Of a stretch of DNA of 32,123 bases, positions 3,201-11,646 are shown piece by piece. Position numbers and translations under genes: made by a program. The stretch's first letter is position 1, and each line of letters starts with the position of its first letter. Under the pieces are notes generated by a model. That model was not told where the DNA came from and did no database searches. It saw only the letters and a program-made list of their open reading frames with translations. Location of the stretch: positions 1 through 32,123 of IMG/VR virus record IMGVR_UViG_3300008050_000173. One strand, 5' to 3'. This DNA is from a virus.

Positions 3201-6065
3201 GTGAATCCACTACTACGCCAAATGTTTTTCCTTGATACGGAAACTACGGGCTTACACCGTGGCGCCTCTATCCACGAACTAGCGTTACTGGATTACGACA
3301 GGCGTCATGTCAGTAGCTGGATAGTAGATCCAAACGCTGTTACCACAAGTACAACAGGTGCCCAGGACCCCCTTCGACTAACCGCCAGGGCTGGTGACGT
3401 ACATACTCGCCTGCCAGTTAACACCTGGGACCAGGTATTTAGACACCAGTTGAAACTAGGGCCTGATAGCCCGGTAATGCGTAGTCTGGCCCAGGTTAGT
3501 CCGTGGTTGCACGAAAATATCGTTCGTGGCCTGTATCCGCACTTACGTGGAGATATCGAAACCTGGCAACAGCTAGACTTGCGCCGTCGCGCCATGGCTG
3601 CTGCTGGCTTTACCTTTAGTCAGCAACGTGGGTCCGTGCACGCGGCGCTTGGGGATATTCCTCGACATCTAAGCCCCGGCAGCACCTTGTGGATTGCCAA
3701 CGCCGCATTCGAAAGCAAGCAGGTGGGTGCACAACTAGCTGCCGACGGTCAGGCGTTACGAAATCAAATCGCTGCCAGCTTGGAAACCGCTGGTGAGGGG
3801 AGTGACATCCTGTACGTTACGGGACCAGAGGTTAACCAGGCAAGGACGCTGGCGGCTCATACGGGTGACTACAGGCCAGTCTACGAGGCTTACCGACGTC
3901 ATGTACCAGCCGCCGGCACCACGGCCGTCAGAGACATCCTGGACGTCACCAGGGCGCTTAAATCCTGGGGTACGGCAACCCGTATGAGATCCCAGAAGGG
4001 CCTGGGTCCTCTTGGTATAGACATAAACGCCCAGATGTTATCTCGTGCGTTTGGAGACCGGTTGGCTCTCGAGGCGCATCGCGCTGCTGAAGACGTGGCT
4101 TTACATGAACAGTATGTACTTAGGCGCCAAGCGGAGTTAATTGAGGCTTTTCGCGCCGATACCCCCGACCTACGTGCACAAGCCCGACGAGGTGTTGGTC
4201 CGCTCGCAGCAGCCTCAAGGTATTTTGGTTACGAGGCTGCGGTTAGTAAGGAGGCGCAGGAGCGTGCTGCCGCACAGCGTCTTGCGCGTGCGCGTGAGCA
4301 ACTACTGCTTGAAGGTCATGCTGTTAGTCAATCGGGTATAGCTGGTATTCGACGCCAGGCTAAAACCCGACCTGATGGCCAGCGTGTTTTCGAGCCCAGA
4401 CCCTTCTACCGACACAGGTATCACCAGCAACTATCAGAGGTGGTTGACCACATTCGAGACCAGTATGATGTCGATTGGCAGGCGCTTGAACGCCAGTATG
4501 GCAGCTACGCCACGGTTGAACAACTGCGTGCTGGTCATCATCGTCATGTACGCGACCTCGATGCCAGGATACTTGGTAAACTAGATGCTGCTCCCTCTGT
4601 GCGAACAGGAATAGCGGGTCCTAACCTGCGCCGTGTAGCCGGGGACTTGCGAACGGGTGGCGCGCTGTTGGCCGCAGGTGTTGCTGCCGTTGGTGTCGCC
4701 GCGGTGTTTCCATCTACAGGACCGCCCGCGCAGTCGTCTGTGCTAAGTTACGGATACAGTGATTGGCTTGCTCGCAACGAGGGAATGAGGCACGATGGAC
4801 CGATTGGCGCCCAAAGGCGGCAAAACACCGACTTTGGTAGCCCGTATCAGGGACCACAAACCAGTATGGGCGTACTAGCAGATCAGGAGCTATTGGCTGA
4901 GCGTGAGCGGTGGTTGCGAACCCAGTATGGGGTTGTACATGGCCCTGGCGGCATAGCCAGTGTATTTGGTTCCAAACGCGGTGCCAACTACATTTCCAAC
5001 ACCCGTACACGAGCACCAGGGGAATTTCCTGGCTTACGAGGGCAGGGTCTCCAGGTGCTTGATGTTGATCCAACAAAGTACGAAATCGAGCTAGAGGATC
5101 CAGATACGCTTAAACTCACCAGGCGAGGTGGAGCGCTTGCAGCATTCATGGGGCAACAAAGTGGATACAGCTTTCGTCTTGAAGGCATCGACGCCCCCGA
5201 AGTGCAACATGGGGTCTTTGACGGCGGTGGGGCTGGCTATCATACGCCGCAGCCCGGCGCTGACCAAGCCGCAGCCGCAGCCAGGGCGTTAATCGCCGGC
5301 AAGCGCCTACAACTTGTGATCAATCCTGGTGAAAGCACCTATGGTCGTCAACTAGCTGTCCTGTACGCAGATGGCAAGAACTACAACCTGCAGGCTGTGC
5401 AACGCGGCCACGCGGCCTTCCTTCCCTTTGGTAAGGCTGGCGACAGCATGGTTAGCTGGCAGGCGTTTAGAAGCGCTGAAACCAGAGCTTACAAGGCTAA
5501 TCGAGGTATGTGGAGTCAGCCGTGGGCACGGGCGTTTTACGAGGCTACCAGTGCTCGCGGAGATCGCATCACCTTCAACACCTTTACGCGTAAAGACCGT
5601 ATTGTCGCCAATAGCGGACATCTCAGTATTCTCACTACCATGGAGGCTGCACAGCAGCAAGGGTGGAATCCCGGCGTGGCTGCTGCCGCGCAGGCAGCTG
5701 GAGCAACAGCTGGTATACACGAGGACAAGGTGACTCCGTGGGTAATCAGTCAGCCAAACGCCCCGCATAAGAACTACCTGGTGGAGCAACAACGGGATCT
5801 GAGTTCATACATCAGTCAGCACGGGCGACCGCGGGGGCCCCACCGCCTCCGGGCGACAAATGGAGTCAGGACGCTAGACAGTGTGATGGCAGTTGATACA
5901 ATGGGTACCAGCACAAGTCCGCATACGCGTCGAGGCTACAGTGCCTACAGGCATTATGGAAGTCAACAGGCGATTCAGCGGCGACGCCAGCAAGGGCTGG
6001 CGCAAAGACAACAGAACCACATGATGTTTAGAAGTCCCGTGGGACACCATAGTATGGAGGCATGA
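3201..6065 (+). CDS. Dual-nuclease protein: DEDDh (DnaQ-like) exonuclease fused to SNase domain
   Basis: The 954-residue product uses a GTG start with GGAG five bases upstream. The N-terminus has Exo I FFLDTETTGL (Asp12, Glu14), Exo II WIANAAFESK (Asn167, Phe170, Glu171, where Asp is usual) and Exo III with His293-x4-Asp298, the signature of DEDDh 3'-5' exonucleases. A hydrophobic stretch at about 486-504 (GGALLAAGVAAVGVAAVF) could cross a membrane. Residues about 615-750 are a staphylococcal-nuclease domain with all key positions: Asp635 (DPDT), Arg659, Asp664 and Glu667 in RLEGIDAPE, and Arg716 in YGRQLAV. The C-terminal 180 residues are Gln/Arg/Gly-rich and unrecognised. Both active sites look intact except for the conservative Asp-to-Glu change. 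Its place between the candidate TerS and TerL suggests a virion-associated or late nuclease. Targets could be host DNA, competing phage DNA or packaging ends; the sequence does not decide. Confidence 0.85.
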   Translation: MNPLLRQMFFLDTETTGLHRGASIHELALLDYDRRHVSSWIVDPNAVTTSTTGAQDPLRLTARAGDVHTRLPVNTWDQVFRHQLKLGPDSPVMRSLAQVSPWLHENIVRGLYPHLRGDIETWQQLDLRRRAMAAAGFTFSQQRGSVHAALGDIPRHLSPGSTLWIANAAFESKQVGAQLAADGQALRNQIAASLETAGEGSDILYVTGPEVNQARTLAAHTGDYRPVYEAYRRHVPAAGTTAVRDILDVTRALKSWGTATRMRSQKGLGPLGIDINAQMLSRAFGDRLALEAHRAAEDVALHEQYVLRRQAELIEAFRADTPDLRAQARRGVGPLAAASRYFGYEAAVSKEAQERAAAQRLARAREQLLLEGHAVSQSGIAGIRRQAKTRPDGQRVFEPRPFYRHRYHQQLSEVVDHIRDQYDVDWQALERQYGSYATVEQLRAGHHRHVRDLDARILGKLDAAPSVRTGIAGPNLRRVAGDLRTGGALLAAGVAAVGVAAVFPSTGPPAQSSVLSYGYSDWLARNEGMRHDGPIGAQRRQNTDFGSPYQGPQTSMGVLADQELLAERERWLRTQYGVVHGPGGIASVFGSKRGANYISNTRTRAPGEFPGLRGQGLQVLDVDPTKYEIELEDPDTLKLTRRGGALAAFMGQQSGYSFRLEGIDAPEVQHGVFDGGGAGYHTPQPGADQAAAAARALIAGKRLQLVINPGESTYGRQLAVLYADGKNYNLQAVQRGHAAFLPFGKAGDSMVSWQAFRSAETRAYKANRGMWSQPWARAFYEATSARGDRITFNTFTRKDRIVANSGHLSILTTMEAAQQQGWNPGVAAAAQAAGATAGIHEDKVTPWVISQPNAPHKNYLVEQQRDLSSYISQHGRPRGPHRLRATNGVRTLDSVMAVDTMGTSTSPHTRRGYSAYRHYGSQQAIQRRRQQGLAQRQQNHMMFRSPVGHHSMEA

Positions 6066-7036: not shown

Positions 7037-7470
7037 GGTTAAAGCATTCTTTTCGAACACGGGACCATGCGTTAGCTGCGGCTGTTGACAAAGCCCTCAA
7101 CCAAGGGTGGAGTGTGCTGGTGCTGGGTACTGGATTTTATTTTGAGGCTTTCGAGCGCTATGTCGCCACTGCACTAGACCTTTACGCTGGTGAAGCCGTG
7201 TATATCATACAGGAGCAACCTTATGTTAGTGCTCGCTTTCATGGCGGTGGTACCATTAGGTTCGCAGACCTTACGCCAGGGCAGGAGAGAGGAAAGGCAG
7301 GTCTAAATAGCCAGGTGACAGCAGATTTAATCTATGTTATCGAGGACGATCGCGGATCGCTGGTCTCGCTACTTGCTCACATTGTGCATCCGATTATGGA
7401 ACGTAGTGGTGACCATTGCGTCCTTTCTATGATTGGAGAATCAGATGACCCCGAGTTTGGACAGTATTGA
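7033..7470 (+). CDS. Short protein resembling a P-loop-less terminase ATPase core
   Basis: The 145-residue product starts MRLKHSFRTRDHAL in an ATGA overlap with the preceding gene. By eye, residues about 25-145 follow the same order as the TerL ATPase core encoded next door. A strand plus helix (WSVLVLGTGFYFEAFERY) matches TerL IMIVTPYQSQILNIFDEM. FHGGGTIRFADL matches FDNGAIIKGF, a shared RG follows, and ADLIYVIEDD matches the Walker B strand ATIIYLDEMD. HIVHPIMERSGDHCVLSMIGES then matches VVMPILLTDQEGDVVLVATSTP. It lacks a Walker A segment, and the Walker B Asp is replaced by Ile. It may therefore be a catalytically dead terminase-like partner, or a remnant. The resemblance is visual only and needs structural comparison. 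Confidence 0.6.
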   Translation: MRLKHSFRTRDHALAAAVDKALNQGWSVLVLGTGFYFEAFERYVATALDLYAGEAVYIIQEQPYVSARFHGGGTIRFADLTPGQERGKAGLNSQVTADLIYVIEDDRGSLVSLLAHIVHPIMERSGDHCVLSMIGESDDPEFGQY

Positions 7471-10400
7471 AAGCAAACTGTATGTTGTTAACGAATACGG
7501 TGTAAAATATCAGGATTCAAATGCTCGTTTAGACACCGCAGAACAGCAGTGGCTTGCTAGCAACTACGGTGTCCGAACAGACTGGCACCCCACGTGTATA
7601 GGGTGCCAGGCTAGACAGCTAATCAAGTACAAGGAAGCCCGAGATAAAGATGGTACCCCCGTGCGGGACTTTCGTGTTCCCTGTAAGGGTATTCCCGCCG
7701 GGCTTGGCGCTGGCGCGCTAGCAGCTCGTGATGCACTTGTTACCAAGCATAATATCACCAAAACCAGGGCTAACAAACTGCTACTTAGTACCGTTGACCC
7801 CGTAGCTTGGGCCGAGCTGTTTTTTGGCTTCGATGACTCGAAGAAAACCTGGAGGCTCAGGCCCTATCAGAAAGAGCAGTTGCGATGCAGTAGCAAGCGC
7901 ATTGTCATCAGGGAGGGTCGGCGTAGCGGCAAGACCTTTGTAAGTGCGTTAAAGCTTCTTTACTTTGCCCTAACACGGCAGGTGCCTGCGGGTTATGATA
8001 ACGAAACTGGAGAACAGTTGTTTTCTGGCCCAGAGATTATGATTGTCACCCCCTATCAGTCCCAGATTCTTAACATCTTTGATGAGATGGAGAAGCTGTT
8101 AAAGCGCAATCGGGACCTGATGAAGAGACTGACCACAAGTAGTGGTGGAAGCCTGTATGTAAAGACTCCGTTTTTCCACATGGATTTTGATAACGGTGCC
8201 ATCATCAAGGGCTTTGTTTCTGGCGTTGGAACCAAGGTCGATGGTAGTGGTGGCGGTACCATGCGTGGACAGAACGCTACAATCATCTACCTGGATGAAA
8301 TGGATATGATTCCTGACGAGGTGCTGGACAAGGTTGTTATGCCTATCTTGCTTACCGACCAGGAAGGCGATGTGGTGCTGGTGGCCACAAGTACACCTAT
8401 TGGAAAGCGCGCCCGATTTTACAGTTGGTGTTTTCCGCCTGAAACCCTGGTAGAGACACCATATGGCTGGACGGATATCAAAGGGCTGGCTGAGCCGACT
8501 GCTGCATTGCCAGTGTTGACTGGCAATGGCGAGATCGCCCACACAGAAGAAGGAATGGTTCGTAATTACGACGGAGAGATGATAAGCATCTCTCCGTTCT
8601 ATCGCCCTGTTGTAAGTGCTACCAGTAATCATCCTGTGTATACTCGACGAGGATGGGTTCAAGCTCATGAACTGACTCTAGATGATGAACTTTTTATTCC
8701 CGTTCCAAAATTACAGTCAGAGCAACTCACGTTCGACAGCCTCAAGCTTCGTATGTGCGATCAGGATAAAACGCAATTCGCGCACGATGCTCTTAAAGCT
8801 GATTCTATTACGGGTTTTTCTAAACTAAAGAATATTCCGCGAAGAACGCTGTCCTCTTATATTGCCAAATATCGTAAGTATGGATTTGTTGCAGATCAGC
8901 GTCGAATAGCAGGCTTCTTGTCAGCGAAGGAGTTTATGCAGCAATGGCATGACGAGTTCAACGATGTTGATGCTCAGGTTTTAGGCTTATATTTAGCAGA
9001 AGGTTCGGTTGTTCGTTCTGTCAAAAATAATTATGTTTCTGGAATCAAATGGACTTTTCATGCTAGCGAATCAGAGTTAATTGATATAGTTTCTAGCTGG
9101 TGTACCCGTTGGAACTTACCTTATGTTATCAATGATCGCTCCGACCTAGATACGACTAGGGAAGTCATAGTCTACAAATCATGGCTCGGCTATGTATTCG
9201 GAGCCGAAATAGGAATCTCTCACGACAAGCAGATTCCAGGTTGGTTCGATCCTATCTTTACCGAATCTTTACTTAAGGGGTTGCTGCAAGGCGACGGCGG
9301 AGTGGGCGATTATGTCGATTGGACGATCACGCTTACCGCTCAAAATGTGTTGCTGCGCTTAGATCAGCTACTGCGTGCTAATGGAATTCTTGTCAGTTTA
9401 TCGTCATTAGATAGACCTGGTAAGAAACCTTGCAAGGCCCTACACAGTATAGCTCAGCGTTATTGCCAGCAGGTACCTGGTGGATGGTGGACCAAGGTTC
9501 GCAAGTTAAGTAGCAGTGATTATGTGGGTCATGTATACAATCTAGAGGTACCTAGTGCACATGATTATTCAGTTGGCTTCAAGGTTCACAATTGTCTGGA
9601 GGACCCTACCTTTAAGGAGGATCACCTGCCGTCGACAGTGCTACCTCAATGGGATAAGATAAAGGGCATGCTTGAAGGCGAGGGAACGCAAGAAAGTTTC
9701 CGAGCCGAGTATATGGCTGAGTTCATTGAAGGTGGACACGGGGTGTTCAAACCCAGCGCTGTTTTCCAGGCTAGGGCTGATTACCGGTATAACGAAATGT
9801 ACAATAACGGCAACTGGTGGCGGGGGCGAGGTGTTCTTGAGCGCAAGAACATCATTTACGCGATTGGCATCGACTGGAATAAAAATGCTGGCACCGAGTT
9901 CGTTGTTGTTGCCTGCGATCCCACAGGTAGTACAAATGACATCTTTGGAACCAAAGATGGTGGTTACAGGTATTGGGTAGTAGAAGCTATCAACATCGCT
10001 GCTGGCAAATTTAGCGCGGACCAGTGGAAGCGTGAGGTAATTCGACTCAATCACAAATGGCAGCCACATTACATCTACGCAGACGAAGGCTATGGACACA
10101 CCATCATCGAGGACCTAAAGTTACTTAGTATTCGCTTTAGAGGTCGAGCCTCTGACCCAATGCAGGTTAGTACCAGTAAGTTGGCTGACAGGTTAAAGAG
10201 CTTTAACTTCAGTAGCAATGTCGAAATGCGTAGTCCGGTAGATGGCCAGAAGATGAAGAAGGCTGGTAAGGCTTTCTTGGTTGAAAACGCTGTTAGACAG
10301 TTCGAGGATGGGCGAGTTTGGTTCAGCCTGTACGACGAGCAGCTCAAGAAAGAGCTTCTTAACTACGTGGTGCTGCGCCGTAGCCCCACAACCAACAAGC

Positions 10401-10921
10401 CGGTATATGGTGCTGAAAGCCCCACTATCGGCGACCATAGGCTAGATGCCTTCATGTTGGCGCTAGCTGGTATTCAGCTCGAAGAAGGTATTTACGTCAA
10501 TGGTCGAGCGGTTGGCCAGGGTGCGCCCGCACATATTTCCGAACAAGAGCTTAAGAACCGGGCTGGCAGGAATCGCGACCCGCTGGGAATCAGGGGGCTG
10601 TTTAATCAGTTGAGTAAAACCGGTGCTGGCAACAGTAAGATAGAATCGATACTGCCAAGAAGATTTGGGGAAAGCCAGGATGAGGCCATTAGGCGAGCTG
10701 CTCTCGACGCAAAAGATGATTCGGCTCGTGTTAAACACCGATCTCGGGGTATGATGAAGCAAGACCTTAGTGTCTACGAATACTATGATGAACGTGCTGG
10801 CATACCGGCTAAACTTTATGAAACAGATGAAGAACACAGTTGGCAACCGGGCTCAGCGCCACATGTTGTAAACCCTAGAGGACGTCGCGGACCGAAAGCC
10901 CGACGTATTAAACGGAGATAG
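7445..10921 (+). CDS. terL: Terminase large subunit (packaging ATPase-nuclease) with intein
   Basis: TerL translocates DNA into the prohead and cuts it. The ATG at 7445 follows GGAGA with good spacing and is preferred to an in-frame TTG at 7433; this gives 1158 residues, 770 after splicing. ATPase motifs: Walker A GRRSGKT at 158-164 (Lys163), Walker B IIYLDE with Asp284-Glu285, and coupling motif VATSTPIGK. The intein interrupts directly after this at KRARFYSW. The RNase-H-like nuclease follows with its acidic residues in GIDWNKN (Asp810), YADEGYGH (Asp880) and HRLDAF (Asp1001, unspliced numbering). The C-terminus is basic (RGRRGPKARRIKRR). The gene overlaps its upstream neighbour by 26 bases. 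All catalytic motifs are present, so the spliced protein should be active; activity depends on removal of the intein. Confidence 0.95.
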   Translation: MTPSLDSIESKLYVVNEYGVKYQDSNARLDTAEQQWLASNYGVRTDWHPTCIGCQARQLIKYKEARDKDGTPVRDFRVPCKGIPAGLGAGALAARDALVTKHNITKTRANKLLLSTVDPVAWAELFFGFDDSKKTWRLRPYQKEQLRCSSKRIVIREGRRSGKTFVSALKLLYFALTRQVPAGYDNETGEQLFSGPEIMIVTPYQSQILNIFDEMEKLLKRNRDLMKRLTTSSGGSLYVKTPFFHMDFDNGAIIKGFVSGVGTKVDGSGGGTMRGQNATIIYLDEMDMIPDEVLDKVVMPILLTDQEGDVVLVATSTPIGKRARFYSWCFPPETLVETPYGWTDIKGLAEPTAALPVLTGNGEIAHTEEGMVRNYDGEMISISPFYRPVVSATSNHPVYTRRGWVQAHELTLDDELFIPVPKLQSEQLTFDSLKLRMCDQDKTQFAHDALKADSITGFSKLKNIPRRTLSSYIAKYRKYGFVADQRRIAGFLSAKEFMQQWHDEFNDVDAQVLGLYLAEGSVVRSVKNNYVSGIKWTFHASESELIDIVSSWCTRWNLPYVINDRSDLDTTREVIVYKSWLGYVFGAEIGISHDKQIPGWFDPIFTESLLKGLLQGDGGVGDYVDWTITLTAQNVLLRLDQLLRANGILVSLSSLDRPGKKPCKALHSIAQRYCQQVPGGWWTKVRKLSSSDYVGHVYNLEVPSAHDYSVGFKVHNCLEDPTFKEDHLPSTVLPQWDKIKGMLEGEGTQESFRAEYMAEFIEGGHGVFKPSAVFQARADYRYNEMYNNGNWWRGRGVLERKNIIYAIGIDWNKNAGTEFVVVACDPTGSTNDIFGTKDGGYRYWVVEAINIAAGKFSADQWKREVIRLNHKWQPHYIYADEGYGHTIIEDLKLLSIRFRGRASDPMQVSTSKLADRLKSFNFSSNVEMRSPVDGQKMKKAGKAFLVENAVRQFEDGRVWFSLYDEQLKKELLNYVVLRRSPTTNKPVYGAESPTIGDHRLDAFMLALAGIQLEEGIYVNGRAVGQGAPAHISEQELKNRAGRNRDPLGIRGLFNQLSKTGAGNSKIESILPRRFGESQDEAIRRAALDAKDDSARVKHRSRGMMKQDLSVYEYYDERAGIPAKLYETDEEHSWQPGSAPHVVNPRGRRGPKARRIKRR
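8429..9592 (+). mobile_element. Intein with LAGLIDADG homing endonuclease inside TerL
   Basis: An in-frame 388-residue intein. Cys1 is at 8429 (block A, CFPPETLVETPYGWTDI). Block B has Thr and His in TSNHPV (His codon 8630). LAGLIDADG blocks C (VLGLYLAEG, about 8978-9007) and E (LLKGLLQGDGG, about 9268-9302) carry the acidic residues Glu and Asp. Block F is VGHVYNLEV. The C-terminal His-Asn pair lies at 9587-9592, followed by the +1 Cys at 9593 that starts extein CLEDPTFKE. All splicing residues of a class 1 intein are present, so it should self-excise. The endonuclease part probably spreads the element into intein-less terL alleles. It sits just after the conserved ATPase coupling motif, a typical conserved-site location. 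Confidence 0.95.
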
Positions 10922-10923
10922 TA

Positions 10924-11646
10924 ATGCCAGGCGTAAAAAATATACTTGATAGCACCTGGGGCGGTGCAGCTGTATGGGCTGGTAAATCTGCCCCTGCACT
11001 ACCGCCGCTACCTGCGCTACCAACACGGGGACCGCTGATACCCAAGGGTGATATTAACGACGTGCTGCCTATCAAAAGGCCGCCACTCGCAGGTGGCGGC
11101 CCACGACCAGAATCTATTCCTCATAAGCCTAGCAGGATACAACAGTCAGTCCAGGCTTTTCACCAGGGAGGCTCCGTAGCTCCTGCTGTAGCTGCTGCAG
11201 CTGCTGCTCCTCCAAGCCTAACGCGTGGCTTATCAACGCCAGGTCGCGGCATGGGCTTGGTTGGTGCTGGAATACTTGGCGGCATGGGCGGGTACACAAT
11301 GGGCAACCAAGATCTTAGTAGCTTTGCCGCCGGTGCCAGTTTTGGACTTGGTGCTGGTGCGTTAGCTAGACCCATGGCTAGGAATGCCCTTGGCAGATCT
11401 GCTATGGTACTCAGGCGCAATGCCCAATCTGTTCGATCTAACAATCCTAGCGCTGGCAGGCAACTCAATGCCGCAGCCGAGCGTGCTGCTCAAGCGCGTC
11501 GGGCTATGAATACTCAAGATGGTCGCTATCTTATGCATGCGGGTGGAAGCCTACTTGCCGGTGGCGCGTTCGGTAGTATGTTTATGAGCGGAAATCGTAA
11601 AAATCACCGCCGGGGCTTCAACCAGAGTCGTGGCAACACGTTTTGA
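10924..11646 (+). CDS. Second Gly/Ala/Pro-rich hydrophobic protein
   Basis: The 240-residue product starts MPGVKNILDSTWGG, with GGAG six bases upstream and two bases after the terL stop. The first 100 residues are Pro-rich and probably unstructured (ALPPLPALPTRGPLIPK, then APAVAAAAAAPP). Hydrophobic Gly-rich segments follow at about 109-127 (GMGLVGAGILGGMGGYTMG), 133-150 and 207-224 (GGSLLAGGAFGSMFMSG), with a basic Arg/Asn/Gln-rich linker and tail between and after them. The composition recalls the 6062-7036 protein on the other side of the 145-residue gene and terL. A membrane-active, ejected or minor head protein is plausible. No family is recognised. Confidence 0.65.
   Translation: MPGVKNILDSTWGGAAVWAGKSAPALPPLPALPTRGPLIPKGDINDVLPIKRPPLAGGGPRPESIPHKPSRIQQSVQAFHQGGSVAPAVAAAAAAPPSLTRGLSTPGRGMGLVGAGILGGMGGYTMGNQDLSSFAAGASFGLGAGALARPMARNALGRSAMVLRRNAQSVRSNNPSAGRQLNAAAERAAQARRAMNTQDGRYLMHAGGSLLAGGAFGSMFMSGNRKNHRRGFNQSRGNTF

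Follow-up and report, generated by a model that had tools for sequence, protein, structure and literature searches.

A DEDD-type exonuclease and a staphylococcal nuclease domain fused in one late-operon protein of uncultured phages

The stretch of DNA analyzed here (the window) is the 32,123-nt IMG/VR virus record IMGVR_UViG_3300008050_000173. About 1 kb at its beginning (positions 1 to 1070) holds no convincing gene and lies ahead of a late operon whose main features are collected in Table 1. Across more than 50 loci of the family described below, this operon has the same order: a Cys-rich/coiled-coil protein, the fusion protein studied here, a Gly-rich protein, (a 145-aa protein,) and the terminase large subunit (TerL), followed by a second Gly-rich protein, three to four small or medium-sized proteins, and the portal. 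Gene order was read from loci long enough for this, and the Gly-rich profile cross-matches other Gly/Ala-rich proteins as well. A first-pass annotation of the bare sequence had placed the fusion gene in a packaging/structural operon beside a glycine-zipper protein, and both observations extend to the family: TerL and portal are nearby in more than 50 loci, and a Gly-rich membrane-type gene is adjacent in nearly all of them. No tRNA or tmRNA element was found near the fusion locus.

Table 1. Features of the fusion protein and its neighbors (window coordinates)
Feature	Coordinates	Strand	Remarks
Cys-rich/coiled-coil protein, 243 aa	2467..3198	+	Directly upstream of the fusion gene; conserved in family loci
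DEDD exonuclease-hydrophobic helix-DFGSPY linker-SNase fusion protein	3201..6065	+	954 aa; GTG start; 50 non-redundant full-length homologs of 942-1614 aa
DEDD-type 3'-5' exonuclease domain, residues about 4-320	3210..4160	+	PHROG 192 match; AlphaFold pLDDT mostly above 90; Foldseek
Exo I, D12-x-E14	3234..3242	+	Invariant, 50/50
Exo II, N-A-A-F-E171	3699..3713	+	Glu replaces canonical Asp (Glu 49/50, Asp 1/50); intein insertion site in L098 and L275
Exo III, H293-x4-D298	4077..4094	+	Invariant, 50/50
Helical domain with beta hairpin, residues about 330-465	4188..4595	+	High pLDDT in full-length model; no function assigned
Hydrophobic helix, residues 485-503	4653..4709	+	Possible membrane segment; KD mean 1.97
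Conserved linker element NEGMRHDGPIGAQRRQNTDFGSPYQGP, residues 526-552	4776..4856	+	F, S, and Y 50/50; D, G, and P 49/50
SNase domain, residues about 622-800	5064..5600	+	PF00565; Foldseek to staphylococcal nuclease; conserved residues
C-terminal tag SPVGHHSMEA	6033..6062	+	Family consensus SPIGHHRM; H949 50/50
Gly/Ala-rich (glycine-zipper-like) protein, 324 aa	6062..7036	+	Conserved immediate neighbor; conserved C-terminus
TerL, interrupted by an intein (about 8429-9592)	7433..10921	+	Terminase_6N and intein matches; intein ends read from sequence

The Cys-rich protein, always found upstream of the slot that holds the fusion gene, combines the motif C-G...CPF..xCP...P.G..C..E with a C-terminal coiled coil. 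It may coordinate Zn or an Fe-S cluster; it had no match among the PHROGs, and its identification as the small terminase is only a guess. TerL is flanked by two Gly/Ala-rich proteins (the second at 10924-11646) that have strongly conserved C-termini of their own, NRDYFSxYR and RRGFNxxRGN. The TerL intein, 388 residues with LAGLIDADG-like traces, lies between FYSW and CLED; in some relatives, TerL is likewise interrupted by inserts, but at different sites.

The presence of two nuclease domains within a single late-operon protein, originally proposed from motifs, was confirmed by Pfam for the SNase, by PHROG 192 for the exonuclease, and by Foldseek searches with AlphaFold models of the whole protein and of its N-terminal part, in which both domains were present and matched nuclease folds. 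All of the residues on which the proposal had been based (D12, E14, N167-AAF-E171, H293, D298, D635, R659, D664, E667, and R716) are correctly placed. In the AlphaFold model, residues 1 to 465 are confidently folded and comprise the exonuclease plus the helical domain with its beta hairpin. Residues 467 to 600, which contain the hydrophobic helix and the linker element, are mostly disordered; the SNase domain and the helices after it extend to residue ~838, and most of the basic low-complexity tail was modeled with low confidence.

The exonuclease domain escaped Pfam at the cut-off for the window protein (best match, RNase_T; E = 0.07) because it is too divergent. Residues 4 to 45 of the fusion protein are, however, recognized by PHROG 192 (DNA polymerase exonuclease subunit; 1e-6). 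A separate AlphaFold model of the N-terminal 464 aa, with 44 homologs, had a mean pLDDT of 86.5 and a pTM of 0.75, and its top Foldseek matches in the PDB were the exonuclease domains of T4 DexA, RB69 polymerase, DnaQ (target TM, 0.51), RNase T, and PolC. These matches are individually weak (E, 0.02 to 0.5), plausibly as a result of large insertions, but DEDD exonucleases make up almost the whole of the top 20. A PDB sequence-profile search with the exonuclease region gave no decisive match (DnaQ, E = 0.09). The RNase H-like DEDD fold is supported by the AlphaFold model and by its best PDB matches, the E-values of the latter being weak. Conservation was counted over 50 non-redundant full-length IMG/VR proteins with both domains (942 to 1614 aa). 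Although the exonuclease domains average only 29% pairwise identity across the family, their catalytic residues are retained in 50/50 proteins (Exo II as Glu/Asp), so the match goes beyond chance, and coincidental motif matches were rejected on these grounds.

The DEDDh signature first assigned to this domain holds for Exo I and Exo III but not for the Exo II aspartate. Glu for Asp is a conservative change, and judged by its residues the site departs from canonical DEDDh and is better named D-E-E-D-h, a variant within the DEDD superfamily. The window protein has the exonuclease fold and the Exo I and Exo III residues in common with T4 DexA, DnaQ, and RNase T but differs from them in its Exo II Glu, its large insertions, its fused SNase, and its location outside a replication module; a proofreading exonuclease of such a module was rejected on the basis of synteny. 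In two relatives (L098, 3340-7188; L275, 2674-6909), an intein is inserted exactly after the Exo II Glu (NA-FE/C...HN/S), and that of L275 contains a LAGLIDADG endonuclease.

The SNase domain was recognized by Pfam (PF00565, residues 658 to 773; E = 4e-10, 40.4 bits versus a cut-off of 21), and its modeled OB fold led Foldseek to staphylococcal nucleases (target TM, 0.7 to 0.79). D633, D635, R659, D664, E667, and R716 are invariant (50/50), and the last five are the catalytic and Ca2+-site residues that correspond to D21, R35, D40, E43, and R87 of the Staphylococcus aureus enzyme. Long variable linkers and insertions (942 to 1614 aa in total length) and a low-complexity basic tail are features that would suit a head protein with a structural or scaffolding function, whose nuclease domains would mainly bind DNA or RNA and whose catalysis would be incidental. 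Such a role is very improbable in our judgment, since the catalytic residues of both domains are fully retained (50/50, with Exo II as Glu/Asp) and since two inteins have inserted exactly at Exo II, as is typical of motifs under functional constraint.

The hydrophobic stretch that had been noted in the linker at about residues 486 to 504 was found at 485 to 503. It occupies the same place in most of the family, usually 57 to 81 aa before the DFGS motif, and is Ala/Gly-rich, with moderate hydrophobicity in several members (KD, about 0.8 to 1.1). Among the 43 members with a helix KD of ≥1.2, K+R residues are more frequent before than after the helix in 27 and tied in 9. A helix between the two domains throughout the family and a charge bias compatible with an N-in/C-out orientation could indicate a late, newly made membrane nuclease that is not packaged, with the exonuclease in the cytoplasm and the SNase outside, serving to degrade host DNA or DNA released at lysis or to exclude the DNA of superinfecting phages at the envelope. 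SNase usually requires millimolar Ca2+, which is scarce in the cytoplasm, and its preference for Ca2+-rich compartments would agree with this topology. However, the helix is modestly hydrophobic and its flanking charges are only weakly biased; genes for exclusion tend to be early genes standing on their own, without translational packing amid head genes; and SNase is found either here or in the virion hub (see below), which favors delivery from outside. We therefore consider a membrane nuclease of this kind unlikely.

Two further elements are conserved outside the nuclease domains. The linker element, near-invariant in the family as NEGM..DG...R...TDFGSPYQGP, contains a DFGS motif that occurs as two to three exact-motif repeats in distant relatives, and several proteins of the same slot repeat DFGSG. 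The C-terminal pattern [IV][GNSAQ]H[HNYT][RKSQ]M was present in 53 of 4082 distinct ORFs, each time at the C-terminus and never internally. Its carriers are 41 fusion proteins, 11 entries of a different DEDD-like protein type, and KLEB27-3 gp006, and all 12 non-fusion carriers are encoded 1.5 to 2.3 kb upstream of TerL. What these proteins have in common at their ends might be a sorting signal or simple homology of the C-termini; the linker and the C-terminal tag are concrete candidates for a cargo-sorting signal.

Single-sequence searches with the window protein gave no match in phages, IMG/VR, or GTDB, and relatives were reached through portal and terminase profiles run against IMG/VR contigs and then through a family profile. 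The gene upstream in related IMG/VR contigs proved to be the same fusion (E down to 1e-157), and the family profile identified 79 viral loci, the large majority with the fusion, so that the arrangement, with 50 non-redundant full-length representatives, is not a one-off. In a GTDB genome scan with the family profile, the matches listed were SNase-like and mostly confined to the SNase region, with no fusion among them, and a prophage or host enzyme was rejected accordingly. Distances among the exonuclease, the SNase, the Gly-rich neighbor, and TerL are correlated (0.56 to 0.79; null maxima, ≤0.24), a co-divergence consistent with long joint descent of the two domains with their neighbors. The protein A0A6J5NQ80 of an uncultured Caudovirales phage ("SNase-like, OB-fold"; 1342 aa) is a full-length structural match to the window protein (E = 5e-35) and, as judged from this model comparison, evidently a member of the family; its annotation covers the SNase part alone and assigns no function.

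The first-pass annotation knew of no standard phage family with this arrangement, and we found none described; the annotated relatives that we found are labeled "SNase-like" or hypothetical only and do not amount to a widespread family annotated for a different role. SNases, DEDD exonucleases, multidomain phage effectors, and a hub SNase in this lineage are already known. In the literature and the annotated phage records searched, we found no description of the fusion, the syntenic family, the alternation of SNase between hub and fusion, or the linker and C-terminal elements.

The named phages with related portals are Moorella MTATph1, Bacillus KLEB27-3, and Acinetobacter ME3, all of the 0305phi8-36 lineage, and the uncultured fusion-bearing phages are distant relatives of ME3 and Bacillus 0305phi8-36. 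Among named phages, ME3 gp011 (A0A172PZZ4; 529 aa, unannotated) gave the highest-scoring fold match. Like the window protein, it is encoded in the slot before the Gly-rich protein and TerL, two genes ahead of TerL. Its Exo I, Exo II, and Exo III motifs read DTET, NHRFE, and HTALSD, and it too has a hydrophobic helix, which in gp011 is C-terminal. Unlike the window protein, it lacks the SNase, the DFGSPY linker, and the GHHxM tag, and the SNase of ME3 sits instead in the hub protein gp037. Records of ME3, MTATph1, and BtI1-like phages likewise have SNase in a baseplate hub protein of about 2200 to 2450 aa.

The hub proteins of BtI1/ME3-type phages (PHROG 8809) resemble the window protein in belonging to the same phage lineage and in carrying a complete SNase domain within a giant late protein. 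They differ in being hub/tail proteins of about 2300 aa encoded far from TerL, with an M23 peptidase in ME3 and with no DEDDh domain found. The window protein is not a hub-type SNase protein, at 954 aa and encoded before TerL, the hub genes being located beyond the end of the window. Nor is it a displaced fragment of a giant hub protein, as the hubs of ME3, MTATph1, and KLEB27-3 share only the SNase with it and no DEDDh domain was found in them. The large fusion-bearing contigs tested, which are possibly incomplete, have one SNase each, with the exception of an extra copy in G022. This second copy, on a 161-kb contig (35707-35934), is stand-alone and broken by a stop codon, in a genome that encodes the fusion as well. 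The hub SNase of this lineage was noted in 2007, and the reason for its presence was called "not obvious" (PMC2147016). With SNase now found in either the hub or the fusion protein, that question becomes testable.

The slot upstream of TerL is modular. It encodes an exonuclease (DEDDh) alone in ME3 (gp011) and L062; DEDDh and SNase in L137; DEDDh, a zincin-like (HExxH) segment, SNase, and a kinase-like segment in L176 (8157-13277, minus strand) and L177 (7812-13166, minus strand); SNase and a kinase-like segment in L325; the same two with a possible nucleotidyltransferase in L326 (2130-5966); a kinase in L055 (PF00069, above the cut-off); and a kinase-like segment with a possible ADP-ribosyltransferase in L126 (733-4212). 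The zincin, nucleotidyltransferase, and ADP-ribosyltransferase readings are motifs recognized by eye, and most of the kinase matches are below the Pfam cut-off. In L075, L082, L129, and L152, no large protein occupies the slot.

These variants bear on a packaging role, which the first-pass annotation had raised as trimming of packaging ends. A nuclease associated with the terminase or portal could use its SNase to cut or debranch concatemers and its exonuclease to trim 3' ends, either ahead of headful packaging or as it finishes. The fixed site upstream of TerL in a head/packaging operon would suit such a role, as would the persistence of the DEDDh module, unlike SNase, in ME3 and L062, and other phages need branch-resolving nucleases, such as T4 gp49 and T7 gp3. 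Yet some relatives have no large slot protein, and others (L055 and L126) have a kinase-bearing one, and therefore the slot does not appear to serve a fixed packaging need. The millimolar Ca2+ requirement of SNase, the nuclease domain already present in TerL, and the hydrophobic helix, which is unexpected in a trimming enzyme, also argue against packaging. Occupation of the slot by kinase-bearing proteins makes end trimming less likely, and we assign a low probability to a packaging-associated nuclease.

The explanation that we favor, and to which we give about an even chance, is that this late gene encodes a modular effector with two nucleases that travels in the virion, interacts with membranes, and enters the host with the genome, where it would destroy host or competitor nucleic acid. 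The ejected-nuclease idea of the first-pass annotation thus seems to fit best, because the slot holds kinase-like and zincin-like modules in relatives and because SNase moves between the fusion and the baseplate hub. Delivery is favored by the hub SNase of sister phages, the hub being the part of the virion that meets the cell envelope at infection. Exchange of modules between constant late-operon neighbors is the pattern of injected virion effectors, of which T4 Alt is an example, and is difficult to reconcile with an enzyme dedicated to trimming ends. On the other hand, a site beside TerL would be equally natural for a packaging factor, and a nuclease in a head with the phage's own DNA would need restraint.

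Under the effector explanation, the C-terminal tag and/or the linker would direct the fusion protein into the head or to the portal, and the hydrophobic helix, with the Gly-rich neighbor, would insert in the membrane at genome entry. The neighbor had been suggested as a membrane anchor; it is indeed of membrane type but is not needed as an anchor, as the fusion protein has its own conserved hydrophobic helix. The SNase would stay inactive until it met Ca2+, in the manner of SNase artificially targeted into T4 heads, which lies dormant among the packaged DNA and cuts only once Ca2+ is added (PMC3012670). The exonuclease would degrade ends that the SNase or host enzymes had generated. If virion-borne, the protein would be a restrained two-step DNA/RNA shredder shipped with the phage genome, which raises the question of how that genome is spared.

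The window protein appears to resemble the polyvalent proteins, large multidomain phage proteins from late-gene neighborhoods in which enzymatic domains are mixed, as here (Iyer et al. 2017, PMC5512222). It has two effector-type domains in one polypeptide and a late/virion-gene neighborhood. The likeness has bounds: the window protein lacks the zincin-like and kinase-like parts, which are confined to distant relatives of the slot; neither SNase nor DEDD exonuclease is mentioned in PMC5512222; and of the domains characteristic of polyvalent proteins (MPTase, LPD, MuF, PBECR, and others) the Pfam search found none in the window protein, where SNase was the only match.

More broadly, we speculate that the slot is a virion-effector cassette of this large-myovirus lineage, in which interchangeable modules (exonuclease, SNase, kinase, zincin, and possibly ADP-ribosyl- and nucleotidyltransferase) are joined by DFGS[PG] elements and sorted to the head by a new C-terminal tag, [IV]GHHxM; this is a tentative proposal that we hold with limited confidence. 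If it is true, the tag would be the counterpart of the T4 capsid-targeting system for injected proteins. In the giant slot proteins of L126, L326, L176, and L177, the enzymatic segments are separated by DFGSG repeats. A further large protein, of 1396 aa (L175, 3573-7760, minus strand; identical to L056, 376-4563), has SNase without the exonuclease and a long Gly/Ala-rich hydrophobic C-terminal region, and from its sequence it is possibly a fusion with a Gly-rich neighbor.
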